A DNA stretch of 32,138 bases, taken from IMG/VR virus record IMGVR_UViG_3300037235_000018, positions 1 to 32,138 of that record; one strand, given 5' to 3'. Shown here piece by piece: positions 948-28,567 of the stretch. The stretch comes from a virus. The notes below the pieces were generated by a model. The model made no database searches and was not told the origin of the DNA. It worked only from the letters and a program-made list of their open reading frames with translations. The position numbers and the translations under genes are program-made. The stretch's first letter is position 1, and every line of letters starts with the position of its first letter.

Positions 948-948
948 C

Positions 949-2283
949 TCACAACCTCGTTGTGATCCAGTCGTCTTCTGGCTGCGTCTCTGGCCCGATC
1001 TCGATTGCGTTCACCATCCTGGCTTCACCCATGCTCTCAGCATAGGCTTGCCGACAGGAGCCTCGCTTCTCAGTAGATTGAGTAATGCGCTCGCAAGTGA
1101 CATAGGCCATGCGCGCGGCCAAGCCCTCACAGAACATATCGTCCATGTCGATAACCTTCGTGATGTCAGCCACGAAGCGGAACACAATAGGTCCAGGGTC
1201 CATCGATGTGAAAAAGTTACTCTGGAAATACCAGTCAGTCGGCATCCGACCGGTTGGTGCTCCAAGGATCGAGACATCGCCAGCGCGCGGGTCCTGATTG
1301 GCCATTTTGAGATAGCCAGACGGTAGGCGGAACACATTGCGTGAGAAGGTTTCAGTTGAGGGTCCCGAACCAATTGGATAAGAGAACACCACCGTCTTCA
1401 GAGTGCAACCAATTGGAAGCCATTGCAAATCATAGGGATTAGGATTACTTACCAATCCCCATGCAGCCGGAACGCCAGCGTTTGACCAATAAGTAGCATT
1501 AGCCCCGCCGGCGGGATTGATATTCAAGCTATTTTGCAAGGCAGTATAAACAATTCCATCCGAACCAGCTACCGTATTATTGGTTACATAGGAAGTAGTT
1601 GCATTCCACGGTGCCGGGGCATTCGTAGGAGTATTACCTTTATTCAATTCAATCAAACTAATATAAGTGCTGCCACTATATTTAACTAGCTGATCGATAG
1701 AATAAATGTTTGCTGCGTTATAAGTTTGTCCAACATTTGGAACATCTGAATTATTGTTGGCCAGAGAGATGTAAATCCCGTAGAGAGGTTGCTCGCTGGT
1801 GCCGTTCGGAAACGGCAGATAGACGAGATCACCGGCATAGTAGGCCGTTGCCCCAGTCGTGTCATAGGGTTGAACATCGAGAGGACCAAAATAGGCTTCC
1901 CAAGAATTGTTGTTACCCCCAGGAGTGTTGCCAACATTGTTCTCTACCATTGAGAACCAATTCATGCCGTTCGTATCCTGTACAATGGCGCCTGGATAAT
2001 AGGTCTCGGCCGAATTGTAGGGTAGTGGCGTCAGCTCCATCGTCGGGAGAACAGCACCAGCACCAGCCGCGGTAGCAGGTACAAAAGAGTTGCGAGCGCG
2101 CAGCACCGTCTGCTTGATGGCGAACCGCCATTGATTGCGCCGCAATTCCGCACGGCGCAATTTGTCGTAAGCAAAGCTCAATTCAGCATTGGCAACACTA
2201 TCCTCGGTGACACTAAGTATCTTCGTTGTGCCGAGGAGTTGGCAACTCTGATTGGCAATGTCGAGACTGTCAAGAAACGGCAT
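949..2283 (-). CDS. Tail tubular protein A (T7 gp11-like) with inserted binding modules
   Basis: This is a 444-aa adaptor between the portal and the gp12-like nozzle. The N-terminus (MPFLDSLDIANQSCQLLGTT and ANAELSFAYDKLRRAELRRN, about residues 1-60) and C-terminus (residues about 318-444, with RLPSGYLKMANQDP, FRFVADITKVIDMDD and a Gln/Asp-rich end) match the gp11 fold, which is normally about 190-220 aa. The excess is a central insertion, about residues 85-280, built of roughly four modules of 40-50 aa with recurring W/Y-N-x-x-x-x-Y, G-x-x-V, Y-x-S/A-L and G-N-T-P positions, resembling ChiC/CBM5-12-type sugar-binding modules. A GAGG ribosome binding site lies about 9 nt before the ATG. The gene sits between the small 63-aa gene and the gp12-like gene. 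The module assignment is by pattern only. Confidence 0.85.
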   Translation of the reverse strand: MPFLDSLDIANQSCQLLGTTKILSVTEDSVANAELSFAYDKLRRAELRRNQWRFAIKQTVLRARNSFVPATAAGAGAVLPTMELTPLPYNSAETYYPGAIVQDTNGMNWFSMVENNVGNTPGGNNNSWEAYFGPLDVQPYDTTGATAYYAGDLVYLPFPNGTSEQPLYGIYISLANNNSDVPNVGQTYNAANIYSIDQLVKYSGSTYISLIELNKGNTPTNAPAPWNATTSYVTNNTVAGSDGIVYTALQNSLNINPAGGANATYWSNAGVPAAWGLVSNPNPYDLQWLPIGCTLKTVVFSYPIGSGPSTETFSRNVFRLPSGYLKMANQDPRAGDVSILGAPTGRMPTDWYFQSNFFTSMDPGPIVFRFVADITKVIDMDDMFCEGLAARMAYVTCERITQSTEKRGSCRQAYAESMGEARMVNAIEIGPETQPEDDWITTRL

Positions 2284-2461
2284 CTGGTTTAGCCTCTATA
2301 ACAGGAGGTGACGGAACTTTACTCGCTTGTTGTGCCTGAGCAATTTTTGTGGCTAAATGCACAACAGCCTGTGCGACTTGTAAACCCCCCGCCTTGCACG
2401 CCATATCCAAGAGCTGTTGTAACACCGTTGCTTCTTGCTCGTCCAAATTCAAAACAATCAT
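2270..2461 (-). CDS. Small hypothetical protein upstream of tail tubular protein A
   Basis: This is a 63-aa protein, MIVLNLDEQEATVLQQLLDMACKAGG at its start, predicted to be mostly helical with a Leu/Ala-rich amphipathic stretch (residues 3-45) and a Pro-rich tail. An upstream in-frame ATG exists at 2473, but the GGAGG at 2471-2467 would then lie inside the gene. With the ATG at 2461 the same GGAGG is 5 nt upstream, so the shorter start is chosen. The 3' end overlaps the next gene by 14 bp, which fits coupled translation. No function is recognised; proteins like this commonly accompany podovirus tail genes. Confidence 0.7.
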   Translation of the reverse strand: MIVLNLDEQEATVLQQLLDMACKAGGLQVAQAVVHLATKIAQAQQASKVPSPPVIEAKPDAVS

Positions 2462-2506
2462 CATATCCTCCATCAGTTAGAGTAGATTTTGTATAGCAAA
2501 ATCAGG

Positions 2507-2713
2507 TCATTTAGTCAAGGGCGGTAGCTTAGCTCCTGTGTCATAGAGGATAGCCGCAGAAGCTCGAAGAAGAGTGAGTGCCGTAGAGACACTTCGAGTT
2601 TGATAGAGCGTAGCCGCAGCATTACGAAGAACTGTCGGAATAGGAGGAATAGGTGATTGAGAGCCTCCGATCTGGCCTAGAGCTAATTCTCCAAGATTGC
2701 CTTGTCCGAGCAT
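2507..2713 (-). CDS. Small hypothetical protein after the tailspike
   Basis: A 68-aa protein beginning MLGQGNLGELALGQIGG. Its ATG overlaps the tailspike stop as TGATG, a strong sign of translational coupling. A GGGTGG-like weak ribosome binding site lies within the last tailspike codons. A longer in-frame start at 2743 lies inside the tailspike gene and has no good binding site. The body contains two similar stretches, LRNAAATLYQTRSVSTALT and LRASAAILYDTGAKLPPLT, that look like an internal duplication of about 22-25 residues. Function unknown; possibly a tail-associated accessory protein. Confidence 0.6.
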   Translation of the reverse strand: MLGQGNLGELALGQIGGSQSPIPPIPTVLRNAAATLYQTRSVSTALTLLRASAAILYDTGAKLPPLTK

Positions 2714-5592
2714 CACACTGCCACCCAAGCTGAACCATTCCATGTCACGAGAGCGTAAGCACTGCCGCCACCCGCGCCGATTAGAATATTGCTCGTAGCA
2801 TCTGATACTAGCGCCACAGAACCCGTCACACGACCTGTTGAGGGCAATGTAGTGACAGTATAAACGGTCAAATTATTAAACGGAGTGGTAACAGGGCTCG
2901 CGAAGGAGACTATCCCGGAACCATTCTGCTGAATGGCGTAAGCGCCGCTCGCCGTCTGGCTGTCGATCAATAGAGCGATTGGCGGATTTGTCAGTGTATT
3001 GGTGCCGGCGCCGGAAGGATTTTGATTTTGCAACTCGATGCCAATTAAGTTTGTCCAGGTGGAAGTGTCTCCAGTCACGGCCCCCGTGGGTTGAGCAATA
3101 ACTATTCCCCATGCGCTAGTGACCGTGCCACCATGAGTATGTTGGACGCTGATTCTAGAGCCGTACATGCTGCCGACATTGCCGCCGCCTATATTCGCAG
3201 CCGTGTCGTTCACGCCGTAGAGATTCGTTACCGTTCCGCTCCCGGCGTTTTGCGCGAAATAAGCGGCCCCGATTAAGTTGGTAACGGTTCCCGTGGAAGA
3301 GTTCTTGGCGATGAACTCTGCGGCCTGGATGGTCGCGTGGTTTGTCGAGTTGCCCGAAGGAGCGGTGACAACATCGAACAAGCCGTAGGCGCTGCCGGCG
3401 GCGATAGAGTTGTTGTATTGCAGGTCAATGACCTGTCCTTCGATGAACGGCGTAACACCGAGGCTCGTTACGATCCTTTGGATGTTAACCAGAGCATTAT
3501 CTGAAATGCTGTCGCCGTCCGTGATCGTCCCCGCCGCATTCGCTCCCTGAAAAAACACTTGCCCGGCGCCGACGTTAAGCGCCCAAGGGTTTGTGATGGT
3601 GACCGAACCACCCGCGAGCGGAGCATTGTCGATATAAAGCGTAGACGCGTTACTGATCGTGACCGACGAACTGTCCGTGATTGTCGGCTGATATAGCGAT
3701 GTTTTGTTAAACCCTTTTGCCGTCGTGATGTTCGTCGTACCAGTAACCGTTGTGGTTTCCGGTGCGATATTAATGTCATCAAGCGTTGCACTAGCACCGG
3801 AAGCAATAGTCCGAGCCGCAGTAGAGGTAAATTGGCCAGAGGCACCAGTAACTGTAAGAACTCCAGAAGCTGACAGAGTAGCATTGCCAGATATCGTTTT
3901 GGATAACCAGTCTGATCCCGATCCCTGATCGACAATTATATTGCCAGCCGTTGCAGCGGTAATCAAACCAAACGCGGCGCTACCTTCAGCCTGAAAAATA
4001 CTATGAGCGGTTGGTTGAAACAAACCTGAGCCGCCAAAAGTGGGGTTGAGTACCGGCGTCAAATTACCAAATGCAACATTTATTGCGCATCGCTGTGTGG
4101 CTACGTTTGAATTATTAGCATCAGTGTAATTCCCAGGGAAAATTAAATTGCGCAGAGACAATGCGCCCGATGGAGAAGTTACCAATGGGGCATAATCAAC
4201 ATAAAAAGCAGGAGTTGTACTGCCAGTCACGAGGAAATTTTCAATGGAAATCCCGATTGCTGTCTCTCCACTCCAGGGTTGATCATCCACGGTAAACAGA
4301 TCAATCAGATGTCCGGCCGAATTTGCCACCCCAGAAATTATTCCAGTGATCACAATATTCTCAAATAAAGTTCCGAGTTCAGACGTGGTGGATTTTGCAA
4401 ATTGAACGGTAGGGACCGTACCGCTATCGCCACTCTCATCAACATCAAGATTGATGCGGATATTGCGTAATATAGTATTTGTTGAGGTGTTCCAAGCCGA
4501 ACTCAATCCCATTGTGATATGAGAAGCAGAATTTGAGCCAGCGGTACGAGCGAGTGCTTTATAATTCAGAATTATATTCTCGTTAACCCCGCTATTTTGA
4601 TCGGCCGTTATGAGAACATCGTTTGCCCTACAGTTCTGAGAAACTACCGATATATCCGCATTGACAACGCCATGCAGAAAAACAGATCGATCTGCGTTCA
4701 ATGTGGATAATCCCCGAACAAAAATGCCAGAACAGGGGCCGGAGGTGGGGTTTCCTGCTCCGTCCGAAAACACCACCCCGTATAATGAATTAACACATTG
4801 GACATTCTCAACAACAACCCCAACCGTAGTTGCGCATTCAATTGGGCCTTGGCATCCGGTAATCACAGAATTAGTGAGAGAAATGACAGCACAACCGTCC
4901 GCCGCTGCTATCAGAAGTGTCCCATATGGAGTAGAAGACCCGACAGTAACGCCGTTGGTTTGAGTGACATTAACGCCATCGACCCAAACATTCGTTGATC
5001 CTATCAAATTGATGAGAGTAAGATTATCGGAAGTCGAGAAGGTATGACCGACAACTAAAGTTGCTCCGGTTCCAAAAATTCGAATATTGGAACAGGAGTT
5101 GAAATTAAGCAACGGGGATGAAATAGACTGGCCAGAATTGTAAACATTGTAGGAAAACCCTGGGACGAATTCAATTACTGCATTCCCGCTGTTTGCAGCA
5201 ATAGCCGTGGCCATCGCCTGAAATGCAGTTGTCCAATCAGTAGTGCCTGCGGGAGCAAAATCTTCAGGGCGATAGACAGCAGGAACAAAGTCAAACGCCG
5301 AGGCGGTTATAAAAACCTGGGCTTGCCCCGAAAGATTGATAGCCGCATTTGCATTTGTTGAAGAATGAGGATTGCGGGTGAGTGTAGTTCCCGACGCAGT
5401 GTAAGTCCCATAACCGATCTCCGATCCGCCAGCAATCGGATCGTAAATAGCATATCGAACAGTGTCGCCGTCTTGAACTCCAGCAGCAGAAAAGGCAAGA
5501 TAAGGCGGAACCGCGACACCAAGCGTAATTGTGCCGGTGCCGACCGTCTGCGTCGTCATCCTCGCCAGATCGTAGAGCTTAACAACGGTCAT
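2713..5592 (-). CDS. Tailspike / tail fibre with beta-helix domain
   Basis: This is a 959-aa receptor-binding or depolymerase-type protein. Residues about 1-100 (DLARMTTQTVGTGTITLGV..., then GDTVRYAIYDPIAGGSEIGYG and TLTRNPHSSTNANAAINLSG) form the N-terminal particle-anchoring domain common in phages of Gram-negative bacteria. Residues about 105-500 are a pectate-lyase-type right-handed beta-helix: a D/TTA..AMATAIAAN entry helix, then many short G/N/V-rich strands. The C-terminal third carries repeated tail-fibre modules (ASGATLDDINI, YQPTITDSSSVTISNASTLYID, GLFDVVTAPSGN..., TVTNLIGAAYFAQNAGSGTVTNLYGV). A ribosome binding site AAGGGG lies just before the ATG. Enzymatic activity cannot be judged because no catalytic residues can be assigned from sequence alone. 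The neighbours are tail-associated and tubular proteins. Confidence 0.88.
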   Translation of the reverse strand: MTVVKLYDLARMTTQTVGTGTITLGVAVPPYLAFSAAGVQDGDTVRYAIYDPIAGGSEIGYGTYTASGTTLTRNPHSSTNANAAINLSGQAQVFITASAFDFVPAVYRPEDFAPAGTTDWTTAFQAMATAIAANSGNAVIEFVPGFSYNVYNSGQSISSPLLNFNSCSNIRIFGTGATLVVGHTFSTSDNLTLINLIGSTNVWVDGVNVTQTNGVTVGSSTPYGTLLIAAADGCAVISLTNSVITGCQGPIECATTVGVVVENVQCVNSLYGVVFSDGAGNPTSGPCSGIFVRGLSTLNADRSVFLHGVVNADISVVSQNCRANDVLITADQNSGVNENIILNYKALARTAGSNSASHITMGLSSAWNTSTNTILRNIRINLDVDESGDSGTVPTVQFAKSTTSELGTLFENIVITGIISGVANSAGHLIDLFTVDDQPWSGETAIGISIENFLVTGSTTPAFYVDYAPLVTSPSGALSLRNLIFPGNYTDANNSNVATQRCAINVAFGNLTPVLNPTFGGSGLFQPTAHSIFQAEGSAAFGLITAATAGNIIVDQGSGSDWLSKTISGNATLSASGVLTVTGASGQFTSTAARTIASGASATLDDINIAPETTTVTGTTNITTAKGFNKTSLYQPTITDSSSVTISNASTLYIDNAPLAGGSVTITNPWALNVGAGQVFFQGANAAGTITDGDSISDNALVNIQRIVTSLGVTPFIEGQVIDLQYNNSIAAGSAYGLFDVVTAPSGNSTNHATIQAAEFIAKNSSTGTVTNLIGAAYFAQNAGSGTVTNLYGVNDTAANIGGGNVGSMYGSRISVQHTHGGTVTSAWGIVIAQPTGAVTGDTSTWTNLIGIELQNQNPSGAGTNTLTNPPIALLIDSQTASGAYAIQQNGSGIVSFASPVTTPFNNLTVYTVTTLPSTGRVTGSVALVSDATSNILIGAGGGSAYALVTWNGSAWVAV

Positions 5593-5601
5593 CTACGCCC
5601 C

Positions 5602-6294
5602 TTAGATGGGGACAGATTGGACAATCGCATACGTCCCGGAATTCGTCGTCTGCGTTATCTGATACGTCCCAGGAGGCAACCAGCCAAGACTTTGCCCATT
5701 CGCACTGAGGGTCAATGCGGTACTCAGGAGTGTCGAGCCATCCGGCCCTACCATTTGCACTGTGATCGAACCTGCGGCCCCACCAGCCTGATCTGTGGCC
5801 GGCGACCAAGTATTCCCGGCTGTCGTCGTGCTCACCGCGTATGAGTTGCCGGCTGTGCCGACTGCCTGTGCAGTCGAAGTCAAAGTCGTAGCCGTGACTG
5901 TCGCTGAGACTTCCGCATTGGCAGTCGTAGTGTAATAATTGACACCCGCCGTACCAGAGCCATTGATACACGCTGCCAAGTTTGACAGAGCCAGAACAAT
6001 CTTCGCCGCAGTCGTACCCGAAGCCGGCAGCGTCACATCATATGCCTGGGCCAGATTGCCGACAAGCTCGAAGCGGTACGCATGACCCCCGACAGTGACC
6101 GTATCGCCAGCGGCCGGCAAGTTGGCCATTGTGAGTGTGCTAGTCGAATAGGTGCCCCAGTTGCCCGAGGCTGTCAGAACGTAGTAGCCACCTTCGAGCT
6201 GGAATTGCCCCGAGCTGGCGGAGCCGAGGTTGAACGCATTCTGCCAGCCACCTTGGGCTGACCGAATAAGCGGTTGAGCTTCTGTGACGTTCAT
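5602..6294 (-). CDS. Tail-associated protein, paralogue with inserted domain
   Basis: A 230-aa protein. Its first ~47 residues (MNVTEAQPLIRSAQGGWQNA start, QFQLEGGYYVLTASGNWG) and last ~57 residues (VQMVGPDGSTLLSTALTL, PPGTYQIT, IVQSVPI end) are nearly the same as the 104-aa neighbour at 6304-6618. Between them sits about 126 extra residues (about 48-173), with GDTVTVGGHAYRFELVGNLAQ, AAKIVLALSNLAACINGSG and SVTATTLTSTAQAVGTAGNS. This resembles a small repeated domain found inside various phage baseplate and tail proteins. The outer shell looks like a beta-sandwich similar to head-decoration or fibre-associated proteins. It has an AGAGGG ribosome binding site. The pair lies directly upstream of the tailspike in transcription order, which suggests a tail role. 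Confidence 0.75.
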   Translation of the reverse strand: MNVTEAQPLIRSAQGGWQNAFNLGSASSGQFQLEGGYYVLTASGNWGTYSTSTLTMANLPAAGDTVTVGGHAYRFELVGNLAQAYDVTLPASGTTAAKIVLALSNLAACINGSGTAGVNYYTTTANAEVSATVTATTLTSTAQAVGTAGNSYAVSTTTAGNTWSPATDQAGGAAGSITVQMVGPDGSTLLSTALTLSANGQSLGWLPPGTYQITQTTNSGTYAIVQSVPI

Positions 6295-6303
6295 GGCGCC
6301 CTC

Positions 6304-6618
6304 TTAGATCGGAACGGATTGGACGACCGCGTAAACCGCCGTCGAAGTTGTGACAGTAATCTGATAAGTGCCGGGCGGGAGATAACCACCGACTTGCCCA
6401 TTCGCTGTCAGCGTCAAAGCAGTGCTGATCAATGTTGAACCATCTGGCCCTACGATCTGGAGAGTGACGCTGCCGCCACCCCAAGTCGCGGAAGCAGAAA
6501 GGATGTAGTAACCACCTTCGAGCTGGAACTGACCGGAGCTGGAGGAGCTGAGATGGAAGGCGTTTTGCCACCCGCCCTGCGCTGTTCGCGTCAGCGGTTG
6601 GGCTTCGGTGACATTCAT
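6304..6618 (-). CDS. Tail-associated protein, short paralogue
   Basis: A 104-aa protein, MNVTEAQPLTRTAQGGWQNA at its start, ending with AVVQSVPI. It is the uninterrupted version of the fold seen in the 230-aa neighbour: a Gln-Gly-Gly-Trp motif, SGQFQLEGGYYILSASATW, then VTLQIVGPDGSTLISTALTL and a PPGTYQITVTT hairpin. The composition, rich in beta-forming and small residues, fits a structural surface protein. A GGAG ribosome binding site precedes the ATG by about 9 nt. Tandem duplication followed by domain gain in the second copy is the simplest history. No catalytic residues are seen. Confidence 0.75.
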   Translation of the reverse strand: MNVTEAQPLTRTAQGGWQNAFHLSSSSSGQFQLEGGYYILSASATWGGGSVTLQIVGPDGSTLISTALTLTANGQVGGYLPPGTYQITVTTSTAVYAVVQSVPI

Positions 6619-6621
6619 GAC

Positions 6622-6855
6622 TTACATCTCCATTTCTGTCGTGAAGATGTCGTTGGCCTCCAAGACACGGAGGATGTTCTTCAGGGCAATGATAGCATCG
6701 ATCCGGCGCAGGACATTGCTGTTGGCATCGAGCGCTGGGAAATAGAAATAGAAATCCGTGGAGGGCACCGAAGATTGGATCGTGAAATCGGAACTATCCG
6801 TGCCGCCGCCAAGGGGCTCGTGATTGATACCAATGTAGGTATTTGCATTCGACAT
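6622..6855 (-). CDS. Small hypothetical structural-region protein
   Basis: A 77-aa protein, MSNANTYIGINHEPLGGGTD at its start. It has an aromatic-rich middle (STDFYFYFPALDAN) and an amphipathic C-terminal helix (NVLRRIDAIIALKNILRVLE). A clear AGGAGA ribosome binding site is 5 nt before the ATG, and only a few bases separate it from the following gene. Its place between the capsid-region protein and the tail-associated pair suggests a minor virion or assembly protein. The family is not recognised. Confidence 0.65.
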   Translation of the reverse strand: MSNANTYIGINHEPLGGGTDSSDFTIQSSVPSTDFYFYFPALDANSNVLRRIDAIIALKNILRVLEANDIFTTEMEM

Positions 6856-6904
6856 GCTGATCTCCTATGAGAAATGGGGAGGGCTGCGAACCCTCCCCTA
6901 CGCC

Positions 6905-7624
6905 TTACACGTCCGTATAGGAAACCTTGGCGTACATATTGTAAGCCGCCGCAGGCTGCGTATTGTAAGCGTGCGTGACCACAACGAAGATGTCGAAGTA
7001 GCCGAGGTTCTCCATCGCATAGCCGCGGCCATCGAGGAAATTGAACAGCTCGACCAACGGGGTCTGGGTCAGGTTCAGCATCGTCAGGCCGGAATAGGTA
7101 GCGGCCTGGACAGCACCGAACGTGATGTCGCCCTGCGGGAAAGCGCCGGTCGTGGTGTTCGCCGTGACCGTACCGAAGATGTAGTTGCCGGCCGCGGTGC
7201 CAGTCGGGAAGCCTGTCGCCAGCGTGCCAGCAGTCGTACCAGTGCCGGGAGTTGTCGGAAGGATCGGCCACTGGTTCTGATAGGCAACTGGAGTACCGTC
7301 GATAGTGCTGTCCGAGAAGACAACACCGACACCGAAAGTGAGAGCCGTCGAGGAAGTGCCACCGTCAACCAGCGACACATCGGTAAACAACTCAACTTTC
7401 TTGACCTTGGCATTCGTCGGAAAGCGGCACAAGCGATAGCCGTGACCGGCAGTGCCACCGCCAGTTTGAGCGATAGCGACGCTATCCTCAACGGACTTCA
7501 GTTGAGCGGGACCCCCTTCACCAGCGGAAAGCTGAGCAAGAGGCTGGCCGGCGTAACCCGTAGCAGGAGTGGCATCCAAGATCGTGAGATTGGTGCCAAG
7601 AGTGGTAACGACATAGTTGGTCAT
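6905..7624 (-). CDS. Structural protein downstream of the major capsid protein
   Basis: A 239-aa protein beginning MTNYVVTTLGTNLTILDATP. It has a soluble, Gly/Thr/Ala-rich beta composition with no signal peptide or membrane segment. Conserved-looking stretches include GYRLCRFPTNAKVKKVELFTD, GVGVVFSDSTIDG and LVELFNFLDGRGYAMENLGYFDIFVVVTHAY, typical of uncharacterised proteins encoded next to podovirus major capsid genes. It has an AGGGAGA ribosome binding site 6 nt before the ATG. It is co-transcribed with the capsid gene (15-bp gap). A head-decoration or capsid-associated role is inferred from position only. Confidence 0.75.
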   Translation of the reverse strand: MTNYVVTTLGTNLTILDATPATGYAGQPLAQLSAGEGGPAQLKSVEDSVAIAQTGGGTAGHGYRLCRFPTNAKVKKVELFTDVSLVDGGTSSTALTFGVGVVFSDSTIDGTPVAYQNQWPILPTTPGTGTTAGTLATGFPTGTAAGNYIFGTVTANTTTGAFPQGDITFGAVQAATYSGLTMLNLTQTPLVELFNFLDGRGYAMENLGYFDIFVVVTHAYNTQPAAAYNMYAKVSYTDV

Positions 7625-16897: not shown

Positions 16898-17432
16898 CGA
16901 CTGGTTCCTCCTTCTTTGACTTCCTGGCCTCCAGCAGCAACTGGATCGGCCGTGGCACCGCGGTAATGAAATCGGGATTTTTGGCCAGCATGGTTTCGAG
17001 CTGGAGCAACATCACCGTGCTGCTCTCGACCTTGACACTCTGATTGATGTTCATGTTGAACTGCGCGGCGATGCCGGCGCGGTCGAGAACCGCGAGAGCG
17101 GCCTTGAGTTTCAGTTGGCCCTTTGGTTGATTGGGATTTTTCATCAAGTCCTGCACACAGGCAATCGCTTCTGCGCTGATGCTCTGGAAAGTGGTGATGC
17201 CCTCCTCGACCATCGCGGCTGCGATCTTCGGATTTTTGGAATTGTTGTGACCCTGAACTTTGCAGGAATTAGGTCCACCAGAGTATCCGGCGATCATCGC
17301 AGCGCGCGTGTGGTTGCCATCACCTATCGCTTGGATCGCTCGGACGTAGCGGCGCTGGAGATCGGTCAGCGCGAGCATCGCCGGCCCGAGTTCTGCGGGG
17401 TCAATTGGTCCTATTTCGAGATCGGTGCCCAT
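16845..17432 (-). CDS. Terminase small subunit
   Basis: A 195-aa DNA-recognition subunit of the packaging motor. A helix-turn-helix-type N-terminal segment, LTDLQRRYVRAIQAIGDGNH then TRAAMIAGYSG (about residues 22-52), is the classic terminase-small pattern. The middle is helical (SAEAIACVQDLMKNPNQPKG then LKLKAALAVLDRAGIAA), and this 'LKAA..VLDRAG' is also a signature. The tail is acidic. A CGGAG ribosome binding site is 5 nt before the ATG. It is the first gene of the leftward arm, next to the control region. Confidence 0.9.
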   Translation of the reverse strand: MGTDLEIGPIDPAELGPAMLALTDLQRRYVRAIQAIGDGNHTRAAMIAGYSGGPNSCKVQGHNNSKNPKIAAAMVEEGITTFQSISAEAIACVQDLMKNPNQPKGQLKLKAALAVLDRAGIAAQFNMNINQSVKVESSTVMLLQLETMLAKNPDFITAVPRPIQLLLEARKSKKEEPVDVEFSEVDPDAALFGEA

Positions 17433-17475
17433 ACTAACTCCGTTATCACAGCGTTATTTTAAAGTCAATGGGTTT

Positions 17476-17503
17476 TACTCGCCGAGTAGAATTTTCAAAA
17501 TTC
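17476..17503. promoter_or_regulatory. Two adjacent perfect palindromes, candidate operators
   Basis: TACTCG-C-CGAGTA (17476-17488) is followed without a gap by GAATTTT-C-AAAATTC (17489-17503). Both have a single central base. They lie 45-70 bp before the small-terminase ATG, where they could control the packaging operon. Confidence 0.5.
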
Positions 17504-17539
17504 GCCGCGAAAAATTCTCTGCGGCCGGTTTTCGCGGCG
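17503..17539. repeat. 11-bp perfect inverted repeat
   Basis: CGCCGCGAAAA (17503-17513) and its exact reverse complement TTTTCGCGGCG (17529-17539) are separated by 15 bp. It could form a stem-loop or bind a dimeric protein. No T run follows on either strand, so an intrinsic terminator is unlikely. Confidence 0.6.
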
Positions 17540-17603
17540 CCAGCGAGATCGCGGGGGTACGGCGGCGGGTGCCCCGGTCTTTCCGAGCTGGCGATCCGAT
17601 GGT

Positions 17604-17651
17604 CCTAGGACAGAATACCTAGGAATGCAAGCCTAGGCATATGATCCTAAC
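17604..17651. repeat. CCTAGG motif repeated every 14 bp
   Basis: CCTAGG starts at 17604, 17618 and 17632, with a variant CCTAAC at 17646, exactly 14 bp apart. The minus-strand sequence around 17623-17610 (TCCTAGGTATTCT) resembles the core of the leftward promoter at 14716-14744, so part of this block may be the packaging-operon promoter with repeated operator sites. Confidence 0.55.
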
Positions 17652-17669
17652 GCTACAGCGTGTAGCGTT
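17649..17669. promoter_or_regulatory. 9-bp inverted repeat, candidate operator
   Basis: AACGCTACA and its exact reverse complement TGTAGCGTT are separated by only GCG. Perfect dyads of this size and spacing are typical of repressor or Cro-type binding sites. It overlaps the last unit of the 14-bp CCTAGG series by a few bases. Confidence 0.55.
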
Positions 17670-17710
17670 ACACGGGTTAGCACGCGAGTTCGCCATCTCG
17701 GCCGAATGCC

Positions 17711-17870
17711 TGAAGCAATTGAGCGCTAGCCGAGGCAATCGAGTGCTAGCCGAGGCAATTGACTGCTAGCCGAGGCAATCGAGTGCTAGCCGAGGCAATT
17801 GACTGCTAGCCGAGGCAATCGAGTGCTAGCCGAGGCAATTGACTGCTAGCCTAGGCAATAGAGGATGGTG
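17711..17870. repeat. 20-bp direct-repeat (iteron-like) array, eight units
   Basis: Eight units with an exact 20-bp period. Units 2, 4 and 6 are cgaggcaatcgagtgctagc and units 3, 5 and 7 are cgaggcaattgactgctagc, so the true period is a 40-bp A/B pair copied three times. Unit 1 is a hybrid and unit 8 is degenerate. Each unit contains GCTAGC. Twenty base pairs is close to two helical turns, so bound proteins would lie on nearly one face. Candidate replication-initiator sites or an activator array; the early promoter begins 33 bp downstream. Confidence 0.85.
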
Positions 17871-17902
17871 CAGGGTGCGACAGTCTGCCACACTTAGGCC
17901 AG

Positions 17903-17931
17903 TTGACATCTTGTTTAAACTCTGCTACTGT
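17903..17931 (+). promoter_or_regulatory. Main rightward early promoter
   Basis: TTGACA (17903-17908), a 17-bp spacer ending in TGC (an extended -10 element), and TACTGT (17926-17931). The predicted start is near 17938, about 95 nt before the first early gene. The same design recurs at 29613-29641. Two short hairpins lie in the leader. Confidence 0.75.
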
Positions 17932-18033
17932 GTGCGATAGCGTTCGGCTCAACCGAGCCGCGACCTGCCAGAGCAGGATCGGTCTGGAGCGACGCGCTTC
18001 GCACTCGTAGCGAATAAACCTGGAGAGTTTAAA

Positions 18034-18198
18034 ATGAACACTTATAAAATCATGTACTCTCGTGAGCAGTATTACGCTGTGACGGTGCAAGCGGCCGACC
18101 CCGATGAAGCGCGCAAACTGGCGGATGAACAGTTTGACCAGAACCAGCATTTCATCGCATCAAGCCCCGTCGAATACACTGACTATGAGGAAGTGTGA
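18034..18198 (+). CDS. Small early protein, 54 aa
   Basis: Encodes MNTYKIMYSREQYYAVTVQA, followed by ADPDEARKLADEQFDQNQHF and an acidic end (VEYTDYEEV). The composition (beta strand, helix with Asp/Glu, acidic tail) resembles the small 'V.A.s.eEA...A' domain seen in many phage and plasmid early genes. GGAGA lies 8 nt before the ATG. It is the first gene after the early promoter, and its stop codon forms part of the conserved RNA element downstream. A role in host takeover is inferred only from position. Confidence 0.75.
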   Translation: MNTYKIMYSREQYYAVTVQAADPDEARKLADEQFDQNQHFIASSPVEYTDYEEV

Positions 18199-18269
18199 TT
18201 GCAGCTATTGCCCTAGTGCGGCATTCGTGCTAGGGCAATGGCGGCGATCATAGGATTGCACCGCAGTCC
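18197..18269 (+). other. Conserved two-stem RNA element, copy A
   Basis: Outer stem GATTGC (18197-18202, overlapping the stop codon) pairs with GCGATC (18244-18249, one G-U). A 4x4 internal loop (AGCT/GGCG) leads to an inner 11-bp stem (18207-18217 with 18229-18239) with an 11-nt loop. A second hairpin follows (GGATTGC/GCAGTCC, 18253-18269). The 53-nt core matches copy B at 19325-19377 with compensatory changes. There is no T run, so it is not an ordinary terminator; an attenuator, processing site or regulatory RNA is possible. Confidence 0.7.
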
Positions 18270-18293
18270 GCGCCGACATCGGGAGCAACTACA

Positions 18294-18500
18294 ATGACTA
18301 GACTGCAAAGCATCGCGGACCAATACACCGGCCGCGCATGTCGTCTTTACACTCTTCATGGCGAGAAAGACGCGACAATCTGTGGGCGCCTCAATAACTT
18401 TGCCTCAATTGCAGCGCTCGACGGCTCTTGCTCAATTGAAGTGAATTGGTTGACGGTCGAGCGCAAAATGACTAGCGACCAATTGTTCTATGCCTGCTAG
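18294..18500 (+). CDS. Small early hypothetical protein, 68 aa
   Basis: Encodes MTRLQSIADQYTGRACRLYT, followed by LHGEKDATICGRLNNFASIA and a C-terminus IEVNWLTVERKMTSDQLFYAC. Compact alpha/beta composition with three cysteines. The segment ATICGRLNNFASIAALDGSCSIEVNW has the look of a small beta-barrel. A GGAG ribosome binding site lies about 9 nt before the ATG. It sits between RNA element A and a 57-aa gene. No family recognised. Confidence 0.7.
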   Translation: MTRLQSIADQYTGRACRLYTLHGEKDATICGRLNNFASIAALDGSCSIEVNWLTVERKMTSDQLFYAC

Positions 18501-18508
18501 GTGACGCC

Positions 18509-18682
18509 ATGAGCAACAACAGTCAATGGCGACGCGACCATGACATCGCGCACCGCTGCTATCTGGCCAAGGGAATACCGCAAACGCTGACGCGCGACAG
18601 TGTGCGGCGGGAAAATGAATTCGAGCGCGCATTGGAGCAACGCGGCCAAAAGGCTGTAGAGAACCTGGAGCAAATATCATGA
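18509..18682 (+). CDS. Small early hypothetical protein, 57 aa
   Basis: Encodes MSNNSQWRRDHDIAHRCYLA, then KGIPQTLTRDSVRRENEFER and ALEQRGQKAVENLEQIS. A charged, helical protein with many Arg, Glu and Asn. Its stop overlaps the start of the pentapeptide-repeat gene as ATGA, and that gene's GGAGC ribosome binding site lies within its last codons, so the two are translationally linked. No function can be assigned. Confidence 0.7.
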   Translation: MSNNSQWRRDHDIAHRCYLAKGIPQTLTRDSVRRENEFERALEQRGQKAVENLEQIS

Positions 18683-19326
18683 AAATCTTACAACTTGGCA
18701 CTGGTAAAGTTTTATGGGAGGGCGCGGACCTGTACGGTGCGAACCTGAGAGGCGCGAACCTGTACGGTGCGGACCTGAGAGGTGCGAACCTGAGAGGCGC
18801 GAACCTGAGAGACGCAGACCTGAGAGGCGCGAACCTGTACGGCGCGGACCTGAGCAGCGCGGACCTGAGCAGCGCGGACCTGAGCAGTGCGAACCTGTAC
18901 GGTGCGGACCTGAGAGGTGCGGACCTGTACGGTGCGAACCTGGACCGCGCGAACCTGAACCGCGCGAACCTGAGAGACGCGAACCTGAACCGCGCGAACC
19001 TGTACGGTGCGAACCTGCCAGAATTTCAAATCCCGCAAGAGGGCTCTTTAGTTGTTTGGAAAAAACTGGAAAATGGGCTTGCTAAACTTCGCATTCCAGA
19101 GGATGCCAAACGTACCATGTCTCTTGTTGGGCGTAAATGTCGTGCCGAATATGCCGAGGTGCTGGAATTAATCGGCTGTACTGTAGGCGTATCACGATTT
19201 AACGATAGCTTTTCTTATGTTGTGGGAACAATCGTTCGGCCGGATAAATATGATCCTGACATTCGGATTGAGTGTTCGTTTGGAATTCATTTCTTCTTGA
19301 CGCGCGAGGAAGCAGAGAATTATTGA
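18679..19326 (+). CDS. Pentapeptide-repeat protein with DUF5758-like C-terminus
   Basis: A 215-aa protein. Residues 1-15 (MKILQLGTGKVLWEG) are followed by about 20 perfect A-D/N-L-x-x pentapeptides (residues about 16-115), enough for about five turns of a right-handed quadrilateral beta-helix. The C-terminal ~100 residues (LPEFQIPQEGSLVVWKKLEN, LRIPEDAKRTMSLVGRKCRAEYAEV...) match the DUF5758 domain often found after such repeats. Pentapeptide helices can mimic B-form DNA (Qnr, MfpA and gyrase), so host DNA-enzyme binding is possible but unproven. The codons repeat at DNA level with a 15-bp period, leaving several frames open; only this frame is coding. Confidence 0.88.
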   Translation: MKILQLGTGKVLWEGADLYGANLRGANLYGADLRGANLRGANLRDADLRGANLYGADLSSADLSSADLSSANLYGADLRGADLYGANLDRANLNRANLRDANLNRANLYGANLPEFQIPQEGSLVVWKKLENGLAKLRIPEDAKRTMSLVGRKCRAEYAEVLELIGCTVGVSRFNDSFSYVVGTIVRPDKYDPDIRIECSFGIHFFLTREEAENY

Positions 19327-19406
19327 TTGCAGCTATTGATCCTAGCGCGCATTGTGCTAGGATCAATGTCGGCAATCATGCCGATGTTCAACACTACCGT
19401 TGAACA
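19325..19406 (+). other. Conserved two-stem RNA element, copy B
   Basis: Outer stem GATTGC (19325-19330, overlapping the stop codon of the pentapeptide gene) pairs with GCAATC (19372-19377). An AGCT/GTCG internal loop leads to an inner 11-bp perfect stem (19335-19345 with 19357-19367) and an 11-nt loop. A second hairpin follows (TGTTCAAC/GTTGAACA, 19385-19406, 6-nt loop). The core is 53 nt, the same as copy A. Six inner-stem positions differ from copy A with pairing kept on both sides. Confidence 0.7.
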
Positions 19407-19431
19407 AACATAGTCAACTGGAGACTGCGCC

Positions 19432-19647
19432 ATGACTACCGAACGGAATAACGCCAATCATCCTGACCAGCACAATCGGCGCCGCGAAGATGACGCCATG
19501 CGAGCCCAAGTCGCGGCCAACAAGTCACACCGCACCGTCGCGGCTATTTGGGCCAAGGCGGCGATTAAAGCCCTCTGGCGTGGCGACCATGACGTGGCGC
19601 AAGCCCGCTTCGACCAGGCCATCCTCGAATTGAGGGCAATCCGATGA
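19432..19647 (+). CDS. Small early hypothetical protein, 71 aa
   Basis: Encodes MTTERNNANHPDQHNRRRED at the N-terminus, followed by a helical Ala/Lys-rich body (AQVAANKSHRTVAAIWAKAA, IKALWRGDHDVAQARFDQAI). The helix-rich C-terminal half resembles a short TPR-like hairpin (A...W..A......GD...A...F..A). GGAG lies upstream of the ATG, and the stop overlaps the next ATG as ATGA. Function unknown. Confidence 0.7.
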   Translation: MTTERNNANHPDQHNRRREDDAMRAQVAANKSHRTVAAIWAKAAIKALWRGDHDVAQARFDQAILELRAIR

Positions 19648-19889
19648 CACGATTTGAAGCCGCTTGGCTTTATCGGCGGGAGGTGGCGCAAGCCATCTCC
19701 TGCTATGACCGCAAACGGCGGGACATTCTGGAACGCTTCGCGGGCAACAGCGACGCGATACAAGGCGCATTCTGCAATGTGTGGGCAACGTGTCGCGTCA
19801 TGTTCGCGATGGCTGACGTCATGCTTGCCAAGCGCCGTAAGGACGCGGAGCAATGGCGCCGGGATTGCCTAACCTGGAGAGGGTTCTAA
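19644..19889 (+). CDS. Small early hypothetical protein, 81 aa
   Basis: Encodes MTRFEAAWLYRREVAQAISC, then YDRKRRDILERFAGNSDAIQ, GAFCNVWATCRVMFAMADVM and a basic, Trp-containing end. It is helical and positively charged, with three Cys. The start overlaps the previous stop (ATGA), and the next, interrupted gene begins one base after its stop. An AGGGCA-like weak ribosome binding site fits coupled translation. No family recognised. Confidence 0.7.
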   Translation: MTRFEAAWLYRREVAQAISCYDRKRRDILERFAGNSDAIQGAFCNVWATCRVMFAMADVMLAKRRKDAEQWRRDCLTWRGF

Positions 19890-19921
19890 CATGGCACCCT
19901 TTGAAAAACGACACTATGAAG

Positions 19922-20219
19922 CATGCTTATCCGGTTTTCACCCACAGGAGCTAAATCATGAGCCTCGGTAAAGTTCACAAACTCAAACCGTTCGGGTCAG
20001 AAAGTCGCCGTGCGCGTTTTGGCAATCGCGAGACGTTTTGCGGCCTCGCAGGCTCCCTATGTCCAGGATTTTCCACTGAGTTTGATACCGATGAAGATAA
20101 TCGGTTTGAAGCAACAGACGGAAATGATGGCGTGACGTGCCTCCGTTGTAGAAAGGGCCGCTGGCCACGCACCGATGACGCTACGGCTCGCCCCTATGGG
20201 TAACAACCGGATAAGCATG
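19922..20219 (+). mobile_element. Single-gene TIR cassette 1 (298 bp)
   Basis: The left end CATGCTTATCCGGTT (19922-19936) and right end AACCGGATAAGCATG (20205-20219) are exact inverted copies. Beyond 15 bp the ends stay similar (ACCCAcAGGaGC versus ACCCAtAGGgGC). The perfect 8-bp direct repeats CTATGAAG flank it at 19914-19921 and 20220-20227. Excising the element plus one repeat restores the interrupted gene in frame. It carries only one small gene with its own AGGAG ribosome binding site and no transposase, so it must move by functions supplied elsewhere. Confidence 0.88.
19958..20203 (+). CDS. Cassette 1 cargo: small putative zinc-ribbon protein
   Basis: An 81-aa protein, MSLGKVHKLKPFGSESRRAR at its start. 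Cysteines are arranged as TFCG ... SLCPG in the first half and VTCLRCRKGRW near the end (a C-x2-C knuckle), suggesting a metal-binding fold, with an acidic stretch between them (DTDEDNRFEATDGND). AGGAG is 7 nt before the ATG and lies inside the cassette. The stop codon ends one base before the right terminal repeat, so the element is almost fully occupied by this gene. It does not resemble a transposase or nuclease. Function unknown. Confidence 0.75.
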   Translation: MSLGKVHKLKPFGSESRRARFGNRETFCGLAGSLCPGFSTEFDTDEDNRFEATDGNDGVTCLRCRKGRWPRTDDATARPYG

Positions 20220-20384
20220 CTATGAAGCAATCGATCGAGTTCTTCAAGAACAGCCGGCCGGAGATCAGCGGAGCGCCGATCTTAATAAGGCGTTTGCGAA
20301 TTTATTGGAATGGGACAATGCGCGCTTTGACCGGGAACATTTCTTGCGCGCGTGCATTCCCGGCAATAATGTGAGGGCGTGGGG

Positions 20385-20561
20385 ATGAGCCGACACGCGC
20401 CAGCACCATACACTAAATACAACAAGTCGCCCCATGTCTATTCGGCCGCTTACTATGACTGGCGCCGCACGATCTCGCGTAGCGCCAAGACAGCCGAACA
20501 GGAAGCGGCCGACCACCACAAACGCCAAGCCGAACGGCGGCGGGAGCGGAAACTTGTATAA
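20385..20561 (+). CDS. Small basic early protein, 58 aa
   Basis: Encodes MSRHAPAPYTKYNKSPHVYS, then AAYYDWRRTISRSAKTAEQE and a strongly basic helix (KRQAERRRERKLV). The ATG overlaps the stop of the interrupted gene as ATGA, which supports both the restored gene and this start; a GTG six bases earlier is less likely. It contains the binding site for the next gene (GGGAG). Nucleic-acid binding is possible from charge only. Confidence 0.7.
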   Translation: MSRHAPAPYTKYNKSPHVYSAAYYDWRRTISRSAKTAEQEAADHHKRQAERRRERKLV

Positions 20562-21198: not shown

Positions 21199-21978
21199 AT
21201 GAAAATCTTACAACTTGGCACTGGTAAAGTTTTATGGGAGGGCGCGGACCTGAGCGGTGCGGACCTGAGCGGTGCGAACCTGAACCGCGCGAACCTGAAC
21301 CGCGCGGACCTGAACCGCGCGGACCTGTACGGTGCGGACCTGAGCGGTGCGGACCTGAGCGGTGCGGCCCTGAGCAGCGCGAACCTGACCCGCGCGGACC
21401 TGAGCAGCGCGGACCTGAGCAGCGCGGACCTGAGAAGCGCGAACCTGAGCAGCGCGGACCTGTACGGTGCGGACCTGAGCGGTGCGGACCTGAGAGGTGC
21501 GAACCTGTACGGTGCGGACCTGAGCAGCGCGAACCTGAGAGGCGCGGACCTGAGCAGCGCGAACCTGAGCAGCGCGTACCTGTACGGCGCGGACCTGAGC
21601 AGCGCGGACCTGAGCAGTGCGGACCTGAGCAGCGCGTACCTGAGCGGTGCGGACCTGAGAGGTGCGGACCTGTACGGTGCGGACCTGAGCGGTGCGAACC
21701 TGTACGGTGCGAACCTGGACCGCGCGAACCTGAACCGCGTGAACCTGAGAGACGCGACCCTGATAGTAAGCGGCCAACGATCAGATGGCTACAGGTTCTT
21801 AGGATATAGGGACAATGGTATTCTTATGATTCGTGCTGGTTGTCGTTACTTTACAGCAAAAGACGCGGTTAAACATTGGAAAACAACACGCGGTAAAACT
21901 CGATTAGGAAAGGAAAGTCTCTTGCTTGTTGCCCATCTCGTTGCTACTGCAAAACTCTTGAAATGGAGGATCAGATGA
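21199..21978 (+). CDS. Pentapeptide-repeat protein, long paralogue
   Basis: A 259-aa protein. It begins with the same 18 residues as the first copy (MKILQLGTGKVLWEGADL), and the DNA around the start is nearly identical, including the GGAGCAA(A/G)TATC leader. About 34 pentapeptides (residues about 16-188) would give more than eight helix turns. The C-terminal ~70 residues differ from the first paralogue: VSGQRSDGYRFLGYRDNGIL, then IRAGCRYFTAKDAVKHWKTT, a tail common to other pentapeptide proteins (GCR.F....A..HW). Host-enzyme binding by DNA mimicry is a family-based hypothesis only. Confidence 0.88.
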   Translation: MKILQLGTGKVLWEGADLSGADLSGANLNRANLNRADLNRADLYGADLSGADLSGAALSSANLTRADLSSADLSSADLRSANLSSADLYGADLSGADLRGANLYGADLSSANLRGADLSSANLSSAYLYGADLSSADLSSADLSSAYLSGADLRGADLYGADLSGANLYGANLDRANLNRVNLRDATLIVSGQRSDGYRFLGYRDNGILMIRAGCRYFTAKDAVKHWKTTRGKTRLGKESLLLVAHLVATAKLLKWRIR

Positions 21979-22440: not shown

Positions 22441-22880
22441 CATGCTTATCCGGTTGCCGCACACAAATGCTGAGACCTACTAGATGTTGAAGCCAACACA
22501 GATCAAGGATTTCCCCGGCTGCGCCGTCGATCAGCATCTTAAGGTCACGGGCGCGCTCCCGGACGAAATATGCCAGTGCCCGATTTGCGGGCGAATGCAC
22601 CGGCATCTTGGAAGCCCGCCATGGAGAGACGCTATGCAGCCGCATCAGCAACGAGTTGTGGACGAAAAGAAGGAATTGGACGACAAACTCGATAAGTTGA
22701 AGGCTTTCATCGAGACAAGTCCGATATTCAAAAGCCTCTCGGCCGATGAGCGCGGGCGCCTGGGGAAGCAGTTCGACGTGATGGCCGAATATTCGAGCAT
22801 CTTGTCGCAACGCATCGCCGCCTTCCCGGCGTGACCAAAACACAAGATGTAGGGCTGTGTGTCTAAACCGGATAAGCATG
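22441..22880 (+). mobile_element. Single-gene TIR cassette 2 (440 bp)
   Basis: The ends CATGCTTATCCGGTT (22441-22455) and AACCGGATAAGCATG (22866-22880) are the same 15-bp terminal repeats as cassette 1. A CACACA string is present four bases inside each end. Flanking direct repeats AAATGAGT (22433-22440 and 22881-22888) are perfect and differ from those of cassette 1. The duplication gives the upstream gene its AAATGA end and the downstream gene its ATGAGT start, so neither is broken. One reading frame fills most of it; no transposase is present. Confidence 0.88.
22484..22834 (+). CDS. Cassette 2 cargo: DUF7681-like protein, possibly with zinc-finger N-terminus
   Basis: The frame is 116 codons. 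The second half, from the ATG at 22634 (MQPHQQRVVDEKKELDDKLD, then KLKAFIETSPIFKSLSADER and ends with YSSILSQRIAAFPA), is the compact helical protein common in phages as DUF7681, and it has GGAGA 6 nt upstream, so a 66-aa product from 22634 is well supported. The first half (MLKPTQIKDFPGCAVDQHLK, EICQCPICGRMHRH) contains C-x2-C and His residues like a zinc knuckle but has a poor ribosome binding site. Either one fused protein or two nested starts are possible. Nothing suggests a role in cassette movement. Confidence 0.7.
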   Translation: MLKPTQIKDFPGCAVDQHLKVTGALPDEICQCPICGRMHRHLGSPPWRDAMQPHQQRVVDEKKELDDKLDKLKAFIETSPIFKSLSADERGRLGKQFDVMAEYSSILSQRIAAFPA

Positions 22881-26920: not shown

Positions 26921-28567
26921 GTGATCCTCGACTACAACCATAGTCAGGATCGTTTCCTGTTGCGCGTCGAACGCGGAGTGGACTTGGGCAAGCTCATGAA
27001 TGAGCATGGGCTCAACCATTCCGCGGTCGCCTCGTCGCCCAGGGAAGCCATCTTGTACACGGACGATCCGTATGCTGCCGCGGCCTTTGAGGACTGCGCG
27101 AGCGAGAATGCACTCCTCAAGCTGGCCCCGATACTACACGAGATCAATGAGAGCTGGCGGAGTACATCCAATGCCCACATCGCCGTACCAATGGACAAGG
27201 AATTATGGCCTTTCCAAAAAGCTGACGTTGAATACGCCCTACGGAGAACTAATTGTCTTATTGGAGATCAGCCCGGTCTCGGTAAGACTGAAACCGCCAT
27301 CGCATACTGCAACGAAACGCGCGCCAAGAAAACGCTCGTCATCTGTCCGGCCCAAATAAGATTGCAATGGGCAACGCGCATCCGGGAATGGACGACGATG
27401 GAGCGACCCTATTCCATCTATCCTATCCTCAGGGGCTCAGATGGCACGATGCCTAACGCTTCCTGGACGATAGTGAGTTACGATCTGGCCAGAACAGCGG
27501 CCATTGGCAAGGCCCTGGCGCGGGAGGAATACGATGTCCTCATCCTGGATGAACCACATTACCTCAAAGAGACGGATGCGCTCCGCACCAGGGCGATTTT
27601 TGGAGGGGGAAAATCACATGATTTTGCTCCGCTTGCTGAGCGCTGCCAAAATATCCTTGGCCTTACTGGAACTCCCCTCCCAAATCGACCACGAGAAGCT
27701 TACACGCTTGCTAGAGGAATGTGTTGGGACAGCATCGATTGGGCCAGTGAAGAGAAGTTCAAGCTCCGCTACAACCCCTCTGCGCGATACGAGATCATTG
27801 ATCATGACGGCAACCGAAAATTTCATGTTGATGAGAGAAGCGGACGGCACGCAGAACTTCAAAATCGTCTCAGAGCACACTTCATGTGCCGCCACCTCAA
27901 GCATGGTCCCAGGGGGGTTATGCCGCAGCTCCACATGCCCATCTACGATCTCATCCAGGTCGAGGAAACAGAAGCAATCAAGCAAGCCCTAAAGGCTGAG
28001 AGCCTGCTTGACATTGATCCTGAGATGGTTCAAGATGATGTGGACCTATTTGGAGGCCAGATAGCCACGGTGCGGCGTATGATGGGTATTGCGATGGCCC
28101 CTCAGATCGCAGACTATGTTGACATGCTGTTCGAGCAAGGCGAAGAGAAGCTAGTCCTGTTTGGTTGGCATACGGAAGTCCTTAACATCTGGGAGAAGAT
28201 GCTCCATGAGCACGGCCTTGTCAGGATTGACGGAAAAACTTCTCCGGGAGCTAAGGAGCGAGCTGTCAGAAAATTCACGCAAGACCCTAACACCCATCTT
28301 GCTATCGGAAACATTCTATCAATGGGCACAGGAACAGATGGTCTCCAAGAGGTTTGCAATCACGGTCTCATTGGAGAACCCGATTGGGTTCCTGGAAATA
28401 ACATCCAAGCGTTTGATCGTTTGGATCGTGGTGGTCAACATCGGCAAGTCCAGGGCGACATATTCGTTGCGCCCAATTCGATTGCCGCTAAAGTCCTTGC
28501 GTCTGCACTACGGAAAAATCAAACTGTTCACAAAGCACTCGACTATAGACTTGGAGACATGAGATGA
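26921..28567 (+). CDS. SNF2-family DNA helicase/ATPase
   Basis: A 548-aa protein with a GTG start directly after the previous stop. After a ~90-residue N-terminal part, the motor domain shows the Q-like LWPFQKADVEYAL, Walker A GDQPGLGKT (115-123), Walker B LILDEPH (Asp 210, His 213; DEPH instead of the common DEAH), motif III LTGTPLPNRPREAY (about 248-261), and C-lobe LVLFGWHTEVL, RIDGKTSPGAKERAVRKF, AIGNILSMGTGTDGLQ and motif VI AFDRLDRGGQHRQV (about 497-510). This is the SMARCAL1/phage-SNF2 pattern. It probably remodels or anneals DNA during replication or recombination. The stop overlaps the next gene (ATGA). Confidence 0.9.
   Translation: MILDYNHSQDRFLLRVERGVDLGKLMNEHGLNHSAVASSPREAILYTDDPYAAAAFEDCASENALLKLAPILHEINESWRSTSNAHIAVPMDKELWPFQKADVEYALRRTNCLIGDQPGLGKTETAIAYCNETRAKKTLVICPAQIRLQWATRIREWTTMERPYSIYPILRGSDGTMPNASWTIVSYDLARTAAIGKALAREEYDVLILDEPHYLKETDALRTRAIFGGGKSHDFAPLAERCQNILGLTGTPLPNRPREAYTLARGMCWDSIDWASEEKFKLRYNPSARYEIIDHDGNRKFHVDERSGRHAELQNRLRAHFMCRHLKHGPRGVMPQLHMPIYDLIQVEETEAIKQALKAESLLDIDPEMVQDDVDLFGGQIATVRRMMGIAMAPQIADYVDMLFEQGEEKLVLFGWHTEVLNIWEKMLHEHGLVRIDGKTSPGAKERAVRKFTQDPNTHLAIGNILSMGTGTDGLQEVCNHGLIGEPDWVPGNNIQAFDRLDRGGQHRQVQGDIFVAPNSIAAKVLASALRKNQTVHKALDYRLGDMR

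Follow-up and report, generated by a model that had tools for sequence, protein, structure and literature searches.

Why do two genes in a run of small viral genes each end in an RNA hairpin that begins within the stop codon, and what would such a structure be selected for? The question arises from an entire IMG/VR virus record of 32,138 bases, called the window below, whose minus strand carries podovirus-like genes (terminase, head-tail adaptor and major head protein) and whose rightward small genes begin at 18034. An earlier note on this DNA had described two covarying segments behind two of the rightward genes, had read them as the result of selection on RNA shape and had pointed to RNase III.

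Two hairpins in the window

Both segments are present on the plus strand and are more stable than expected by chance: the first hairpin (18196-18250) has a folding z of -8.3 and the second (19324-19378) a z of -7.0, and for either copy none of 200 shuffles was equally stable. A covariance model scores them at 39.9 and 54.1 bits, respectively. Each spans 55 nt and starts one base earlier than had been proposed. The start at the stop codon holds for both copies, the first base being the T of TGA and not the base after it. The TGA at 18196-18198 closes an ORF of 54 aa (18034-18198) with weak PHROG matches and unknown function, and that at 19324-19326 closes a gene of 215 aa with pentapeptide repeats and a DUF5758 domain (18679-19326; Pfam PF00805, PF19062). 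The plus-strand ORFs on the 3′ side, of 68 aa (18294-18500) and 71 aa (19432-19647), have no family match in Pfam-type and PHROG searches.

The internal anatomy differs from the first description. The lower stem has 7 bp and not 6 (18196-18202 with 18244-18250 in copy 1; 19324-19330 with 19372-19378 in copy 2). The supposed 4x4 internal loop is better parsed as an A.G mismatch (A18203.G18243; A19331.G19371), a G-C pair (G18204-C18242; G19332-C19370) and then a 2x2 loop, and in place of an 11-bp inner stem with an 11-nt loop there is an upper stem of 13-14 bp, running inwards from 18207/18239 and 19335/19367, with a loop of about 5-7 nt. Copy 2 is followed by a tail, TGCCG (19379-19383), of which GCCG at 19380-19383 can pair with CGGC at 19370-19373; copy 1 has no GCCG tail. 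The second hairpin noted behind each copy exists in both cases, as GGATTGC-ACC-GCAGTCC with one G-U pair at 18253-18269 and as TGTTCAAC-ACTACC-GTTGAACA with 8 Watson-Crick pairs at 19385-19406, but its z is modest (-1.8 and -2.8) and, across the family described below, a second hairpin with 6 or more pairs within 50 nt downstream occurs in just 13/99 copies (2.7% when shuffled), several of them with TTGGC or TGGC in the loop region.

The same window holds repeats of other kinds. A 20-bp tandem repeat of 7.4 copies, in two alternating variants (40-bp period), occupies 17715-17863, just upstream of the rightward genes and near several CCTAGG palindromes, and is possibly an origin or a regulatory array. 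An inverted repeat of 26-32 nt (CATGCTTATCCGGTT...AACCGGATAAGCATG), with four exact 15-nt arms and none in the other loci, lies at 19920-19951/20190-20221 and at 22440-22465/22856-22881. The two pairs flank unrelated small ORFs, 19958-20203 and 22484-22834, which look like gene cassettes with inverted repeats as their bounds; YungJamal gene 60 is a comparable inverted-repeat case (PMC4351075). Furthermore, pentapeptide-repeat genes at 18679-19326 and 21199-21978 share a near-identical start, MKILQLGTGKVLWEGADL, and have long 15-nt repeat tracts; the hairpin follows the first of them only.

The six inner-stem pairs that had been said to change on both sides do so in an ungapped alignment. The upper stems of the two copies, however, share CCTAG/CTAGG offset by one position, so that the window alone is weak proof of covariation: one inserted base pair and fewer changes would suffice, and covariation from the two-copy alignment alone was rejected. 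Because of this weakness relatives were sought, and the doubt was removed by a family of 99 copies.

A family of hairpins in viral contigs

A degenerate pattern applied to a viral contig collection found the element in unrelated phage contigs. The pattern TGATTGCAGC-N(18-45)-CGGCAATCA returned 51 stretches, mostly true hairpins by folding, and the reversed pattern returned one. A covariance model, R1, was built from an alignment of 38 sequences, and further patterns and covariance-model searches brought the family to 99 distinct sense copies in 56 viral contigs. A covariance-model search had been proposed in the earlier note, with an empty result as the outcome that would count against the structure; it found many further members. 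One phage can carry as many as about a dozen copies, which lie grouped on the same strand: for example, a 60-kb contig has 13 model matches, one of them antisense to another, a 46-kb contig has 12, antisense ones included, and a 110-kb contig has nine.

The copies share a clear plan. The lower stem most often has 7 bp, with the consensus TGATTGC/GCAATCA, and it usually opens with the stop codon of the upstream gene as its first three bases. The core, AGCN/NNCG, is near-invariant and consists of an A.G mismatch (A8.G72, 98/99), a G-C pair (G9-C71, 99/99) and the 2x2 loop. Beyond it the upper stem is free in sequence, usually 8-14 bp long (mode 10-11; merely 6-9 bp in some copies), and is closed by a terminal loop of 4-5 nt.

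Pairing is kept while the letters change. In an alignment of 103 rows, including one antisense row that was excluded from later counts, 97.2% of the cells are paired and 218 cells carry double-sided changes, against 45 in shuffled alignments. Eleven of 15 pairs covary, in the lower as well as the upper stem, and the signal is lost when the partner is slid by 1-3 bases. Differences between orthologous hairpins of two loci, L044 and L116, are likewise compensatory. Within the stems G-U pairs outnumber A.C mismatches by 26 to 7 (p 0.0013), which indicates that the selected molecule is the sense-strand RNA. A search by structure only, in which the core and two stems were specified but neither lower-stem nor stop-codon sequence, gave 175 matches, 153 of them at stops, and control cores with other letters gave 1-20 matches, 0-1 at stops; these counts include overlapping loci. 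With about 100 relatives, strong compensatory change, the excess of G-U over A.C and the compensated orthologous hairpins, the earlier reading as selection on RNA shape stands: this is a real structured RNA family of phages.

A near-invariant core beside a free upper stem is typical of protein recognition, and the 2x2 loop retains wobble-type partners at position 11/69 in 74/99 copies, against 53.6 in shuffled sets (0/5000). The element might accordingly be a binding site at gene ends for a specific RNA-binding protein of phage or host, which would recognise the AGCN/NNCG core and the UUGC/GCAA stem and would protect 3′ ends or control translation or decay with no RNase III cut. Against such a site, six element-bearing phages that were compared have almost no proteins in common; the sole protein group present in four of the six is an SNF2/ResIII-like helicase (G008, G009, G010 and the window, 26921-28567). 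A common binder encoded by the phages is therefore unlikely unless highly diverged, while a host binder is possible. Taken as a whole, we hold a dedicated binding site to be a possible explanation, though on balance a doubtful one.

Position between genes

The element sits at the ends of genes. In 86/99 copies its position is that of a stop codon closing a same-strand ORF of 40 aa or more, as against 7.9% at random positions, and in 64/99 the stop codon stands exactly before TTGC; since the initial patterns contained TGA, it is the in-frame position and not TGA itself that is informative. A Shine-Dalgarno-like motif with a start codon follows within 80 nt in 97/99 copies, at a median of 20 nt past the tail, and the Shine-Dalgarno site is outside both of the alternative hairpins described in the next section. 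The genes upstream are of diverse kinds and mostly small, with a median of 116 aa; they include AAA ATPase, DUF932, GP88 and ParB-like genes. In MT838835 a homologue (70% identical) of a hairpin-ended DUF932 gene has no hairpin, which means that the element does not belong inherently to the gene. As a separate observation, Mycobacterium phage Shida (L192, 3139-3215) has a 16-bp perfect hairpin, unrelated in sequence to the family, after the stop codon of an AAA-ATPase gene that is a homologue of one of the hairpin-ended AAA ATPase genes.

A strong hairpin after each stop codon, with a median folding energy of -26 kcal/mol, could be a transcription terminator or attenuator between genes. Such a role is very improbable: a U-tract is absent (none of the 99 copies has TTTT within 15 nt, and the T fraction is 0.13), no terminator-like site was found in window positions 17400-20400, and same-strand genes continue, with their Shine-Dalgarno site and start codon about 20 nt on.

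A single hairpin at the 3′ end of each gene, present up to about a dozen times in one phage, is also how attC sites mark integron cassettes, and the gene-hairpin units do move. L032 (5060-4090, minus strand) and L110 (12243-12800, plus strand) differ by the exact gain or loss of one unit of gene and 3′ hairpin, and in L044 and L116 such units are in different order. A cassette-boundary recombination site, at which a folded single DNA strand would be recombined, might leave this picture. The mapped breakpoints, however, are in the region of the Shine-Dalgarno site and start codon (between the two in L032/L110), about 20 nt beyond the hairpin, and none is in the stem. Furthermore, the consensus TGATTGC/GCAATCA is without GTT/AAC (GTT turned up in just 4/99 copies when the vicinity of the 3′ strand was crudely scanned), the G-U excess favours RNA, and ordinary homologous recombination explains the shuffling. 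We consider recombination at the hairpin improbable.

The GCCG tail and the alternative fold

In 84/99 copies (12% when shuffled) there is a GCCG tail that could pair with the core CGGC across a loop of 4-8 nt; about 15% of the copies are without it. The hairpin of tail and CGGC and the lower stem are mutually exclusive. When the RNA is assumed to be cut, a hairpin is predicted at the new 5′ end in 88/99 copies, against 20/99 shuffled. A cut followed by a 5′-terminal hairpin accounts for the conserved tail, and no other reading does so.

Mutually exclusive folds around a stop codon also suggest a part for the ribosome. As the stop codon lies in the lower stem, a ribosome terminating at UGA could melt that stem and switch the structures, a ribosome-release role that would couple the translation of the two genes with no cleavage, or the hairpin may serve as a passive stabiliser of 3′ ends. 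Both forms are unlikely, as the Shine-Dalgarno site is outside both hairpins, so that no sequestration is evident, and the T7-like internal loop is left unexplained.

Proposed processing by an RNase III-type enzyme

The RNase III suggestion of the earlier note is the best fit to the geometry. The best explanation overall, to which we give an even chance, is an intercistronic mRNA-processing hairpin of phages with a mode of action like that of the T7 RNase III sites. An early polycistronic transcript, "early" being judged from gene position, would fold at each stop codon into the lower stem, the small internal loop and an upper stem of about one helical turn. Host RNase III would bind the helix and cleave it at the internal loop, most probably on the 3′ strand and immediately ahead of CGGC, so that the upstream mRNA would keep a 3′ hairpin beginning at its own stop codon. 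The 5′ end of the downstream mRNA, CGGCAAUCA(N)GCCG, would refold into a small 5′-terminal hairpin before the next Shine-Dalgarno site, making each gene an independently stable message. Hairpins at the 5′ terminus protect mRNA from 5′-end-dependent decay; stabilisation of E. coli mRNA by 5′-terminal stem-loops is among the work cited in PMC3997798. The structure, its covariation, the selection of sense-strand RNA, the placement, the tail pairing and the T7-like geometry are observed in the copies; RNase III as the enzyme, the position of the cut and the stabilising role are what we infer.

As the six element phages share so few proteins, a host enzyme is favoured. RNase III needs no conserved sequence, and the strong conservation of UUGCAGC/CGGCAA speaks against it, suggesting an extra specific binder or a structural reason. 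RNase III alone leaves the conserved lower-stem sequence unexplained, so that the specific binder is the main rival. Further points against RNase III are the tail-less copies, copy 1 among them, the upper stems of 6-9 bp and the failure to find the element in those well-studied phages that were examined; also, the RNase III of Sinorhizobium meliloti favours longer dsRNA (PMC6121014). A bolder idea, which we rate as fairly unlikely, is an RNA device in the stop codon, shared by unrelated viruses, that would toggle the two exclusive folds (stop-codon stem versus 5′-cap hairpin) by means of some factor distinct from classical RNase III cutting and would mark each early gene as a self-contained expression cassette open to exchange.

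Distribution and meaning

As an intergenic structured RNA with covariation the element is of the type that Rfam catalogues, but no Rfam 15 family matches the window at the gathering threshold, and the matches in six loci were all below threshold and due to chance. A 53-nt copy used as a BLAST query found nothing among the phages of INPHARED or the plasmids of PLSDB, and in a set of 84,980 species genomes of bacteria and archaea a strict pattern gave eight matches, judged to be chance by folding and context. The covariance model gave none in 397 genomes of one bacterial order, a count that the fast filter makes uninformative. Relaxed variants are present in five IMG/VR records (L088, L105, L108, L147 and L150) that by their identifiers are apparently derived from isolates, and some prophages therefore carry the element. 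The nearest named relatives, Bcep176, RHph_N3_2 and CF418P1, have no convincing copy. In podovirus ctDrO704 (MW202512) the structure-only search found a single divergent copy, which has the lower stem TAATC/GATTA and lies at the stop codon that ends the annotated CDS 115-270. For the terminase of the window the nearest named relatives are Rhizobium phages; the collections searched may omit the genomes closest to the window. A literature search, limited for subscription papers, found no description of the element, and the family is apparently undescribed so far.

The spread is not accounted for by vertical descent of whole genomes, given that the six element phages have hardly any proteins in common. 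The location inside the stop codon is precise and unusual, and it recurs widely among phages that share little else. If the element is an RNase III site, mRNA processing in the style of T7 has evolved or spread in a second sequence form; the hairpin would then be a ready marker for annotating where genes end in uncultured phages, and a small natural part with which operons could be turned into independent messages. If it is not, many phages would exploit a host factor not yet recognised.

Comparison with known systems

A CRISPR-repeat mimic (Racr), compared by description only, would have a constant stem that matches a CRISPR repeat; the upper stem here is highly variable and compensated, unlike a fixed stem. 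The 17-bp dyad repeats of Cluster O mycobacteriophages and the start-associated sequences of Cluster K are also repeated short dyads, often intergenic, and have been tied to gene gain and loss (PMC4351075). The Cluster O repeats, however, are invariant in sequence, show no compensatory change and lie inside genes in about one third of cases, and the Cluster K repeats sit at starts, whereas the phage element changes in sequence while its pairing is preserved, and its place is at stops. An integron attC site is alike in being an imperfect palindrome at the 3′ end of a small gene, with two stems, an unpaired spacer and a variable tip, and in its gain and loss together with the gene; the element is unlike it in having no GTT/AAC core boxes, no breakpoint in the stem, no integron context and a G-U signature of the RNA strand.

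The closest likeness is to the T7 sites R0.3, R0.5, R1, R1.1 and R1.3, likewise hairpins that separate early genes on a polycistronic phage transcript. Folded from NC_001604 around the known cut positions, they show a similar lower stem, a small internal loop, an upper stem of 9-13 bp and a loop of 4-5 nt, and the lower stem of R0.5 also contains the upstream stop codon. There are several per genome, with a similar core and varying stems. The cuts reported by Dunn and Studier are on the 3′ side of the internal loop. In R1.1, which comes from the T7 early region and is 60 nt long, the internal loop has 4/5 nt, and the RNase III of the alphaproteobacterium S. meliloti cuts this hairpin at site a (PMC6121014). 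Model R2 had no match in T7 positions 500-7000 (L185), and there is no sequence homology to the T7 sites. In the element AGCN/NNCG forms the core in place of the loop sequence of T7, the stop codon usually sets the start, and most copies carry the GCCG tail for the alternative hairpin.
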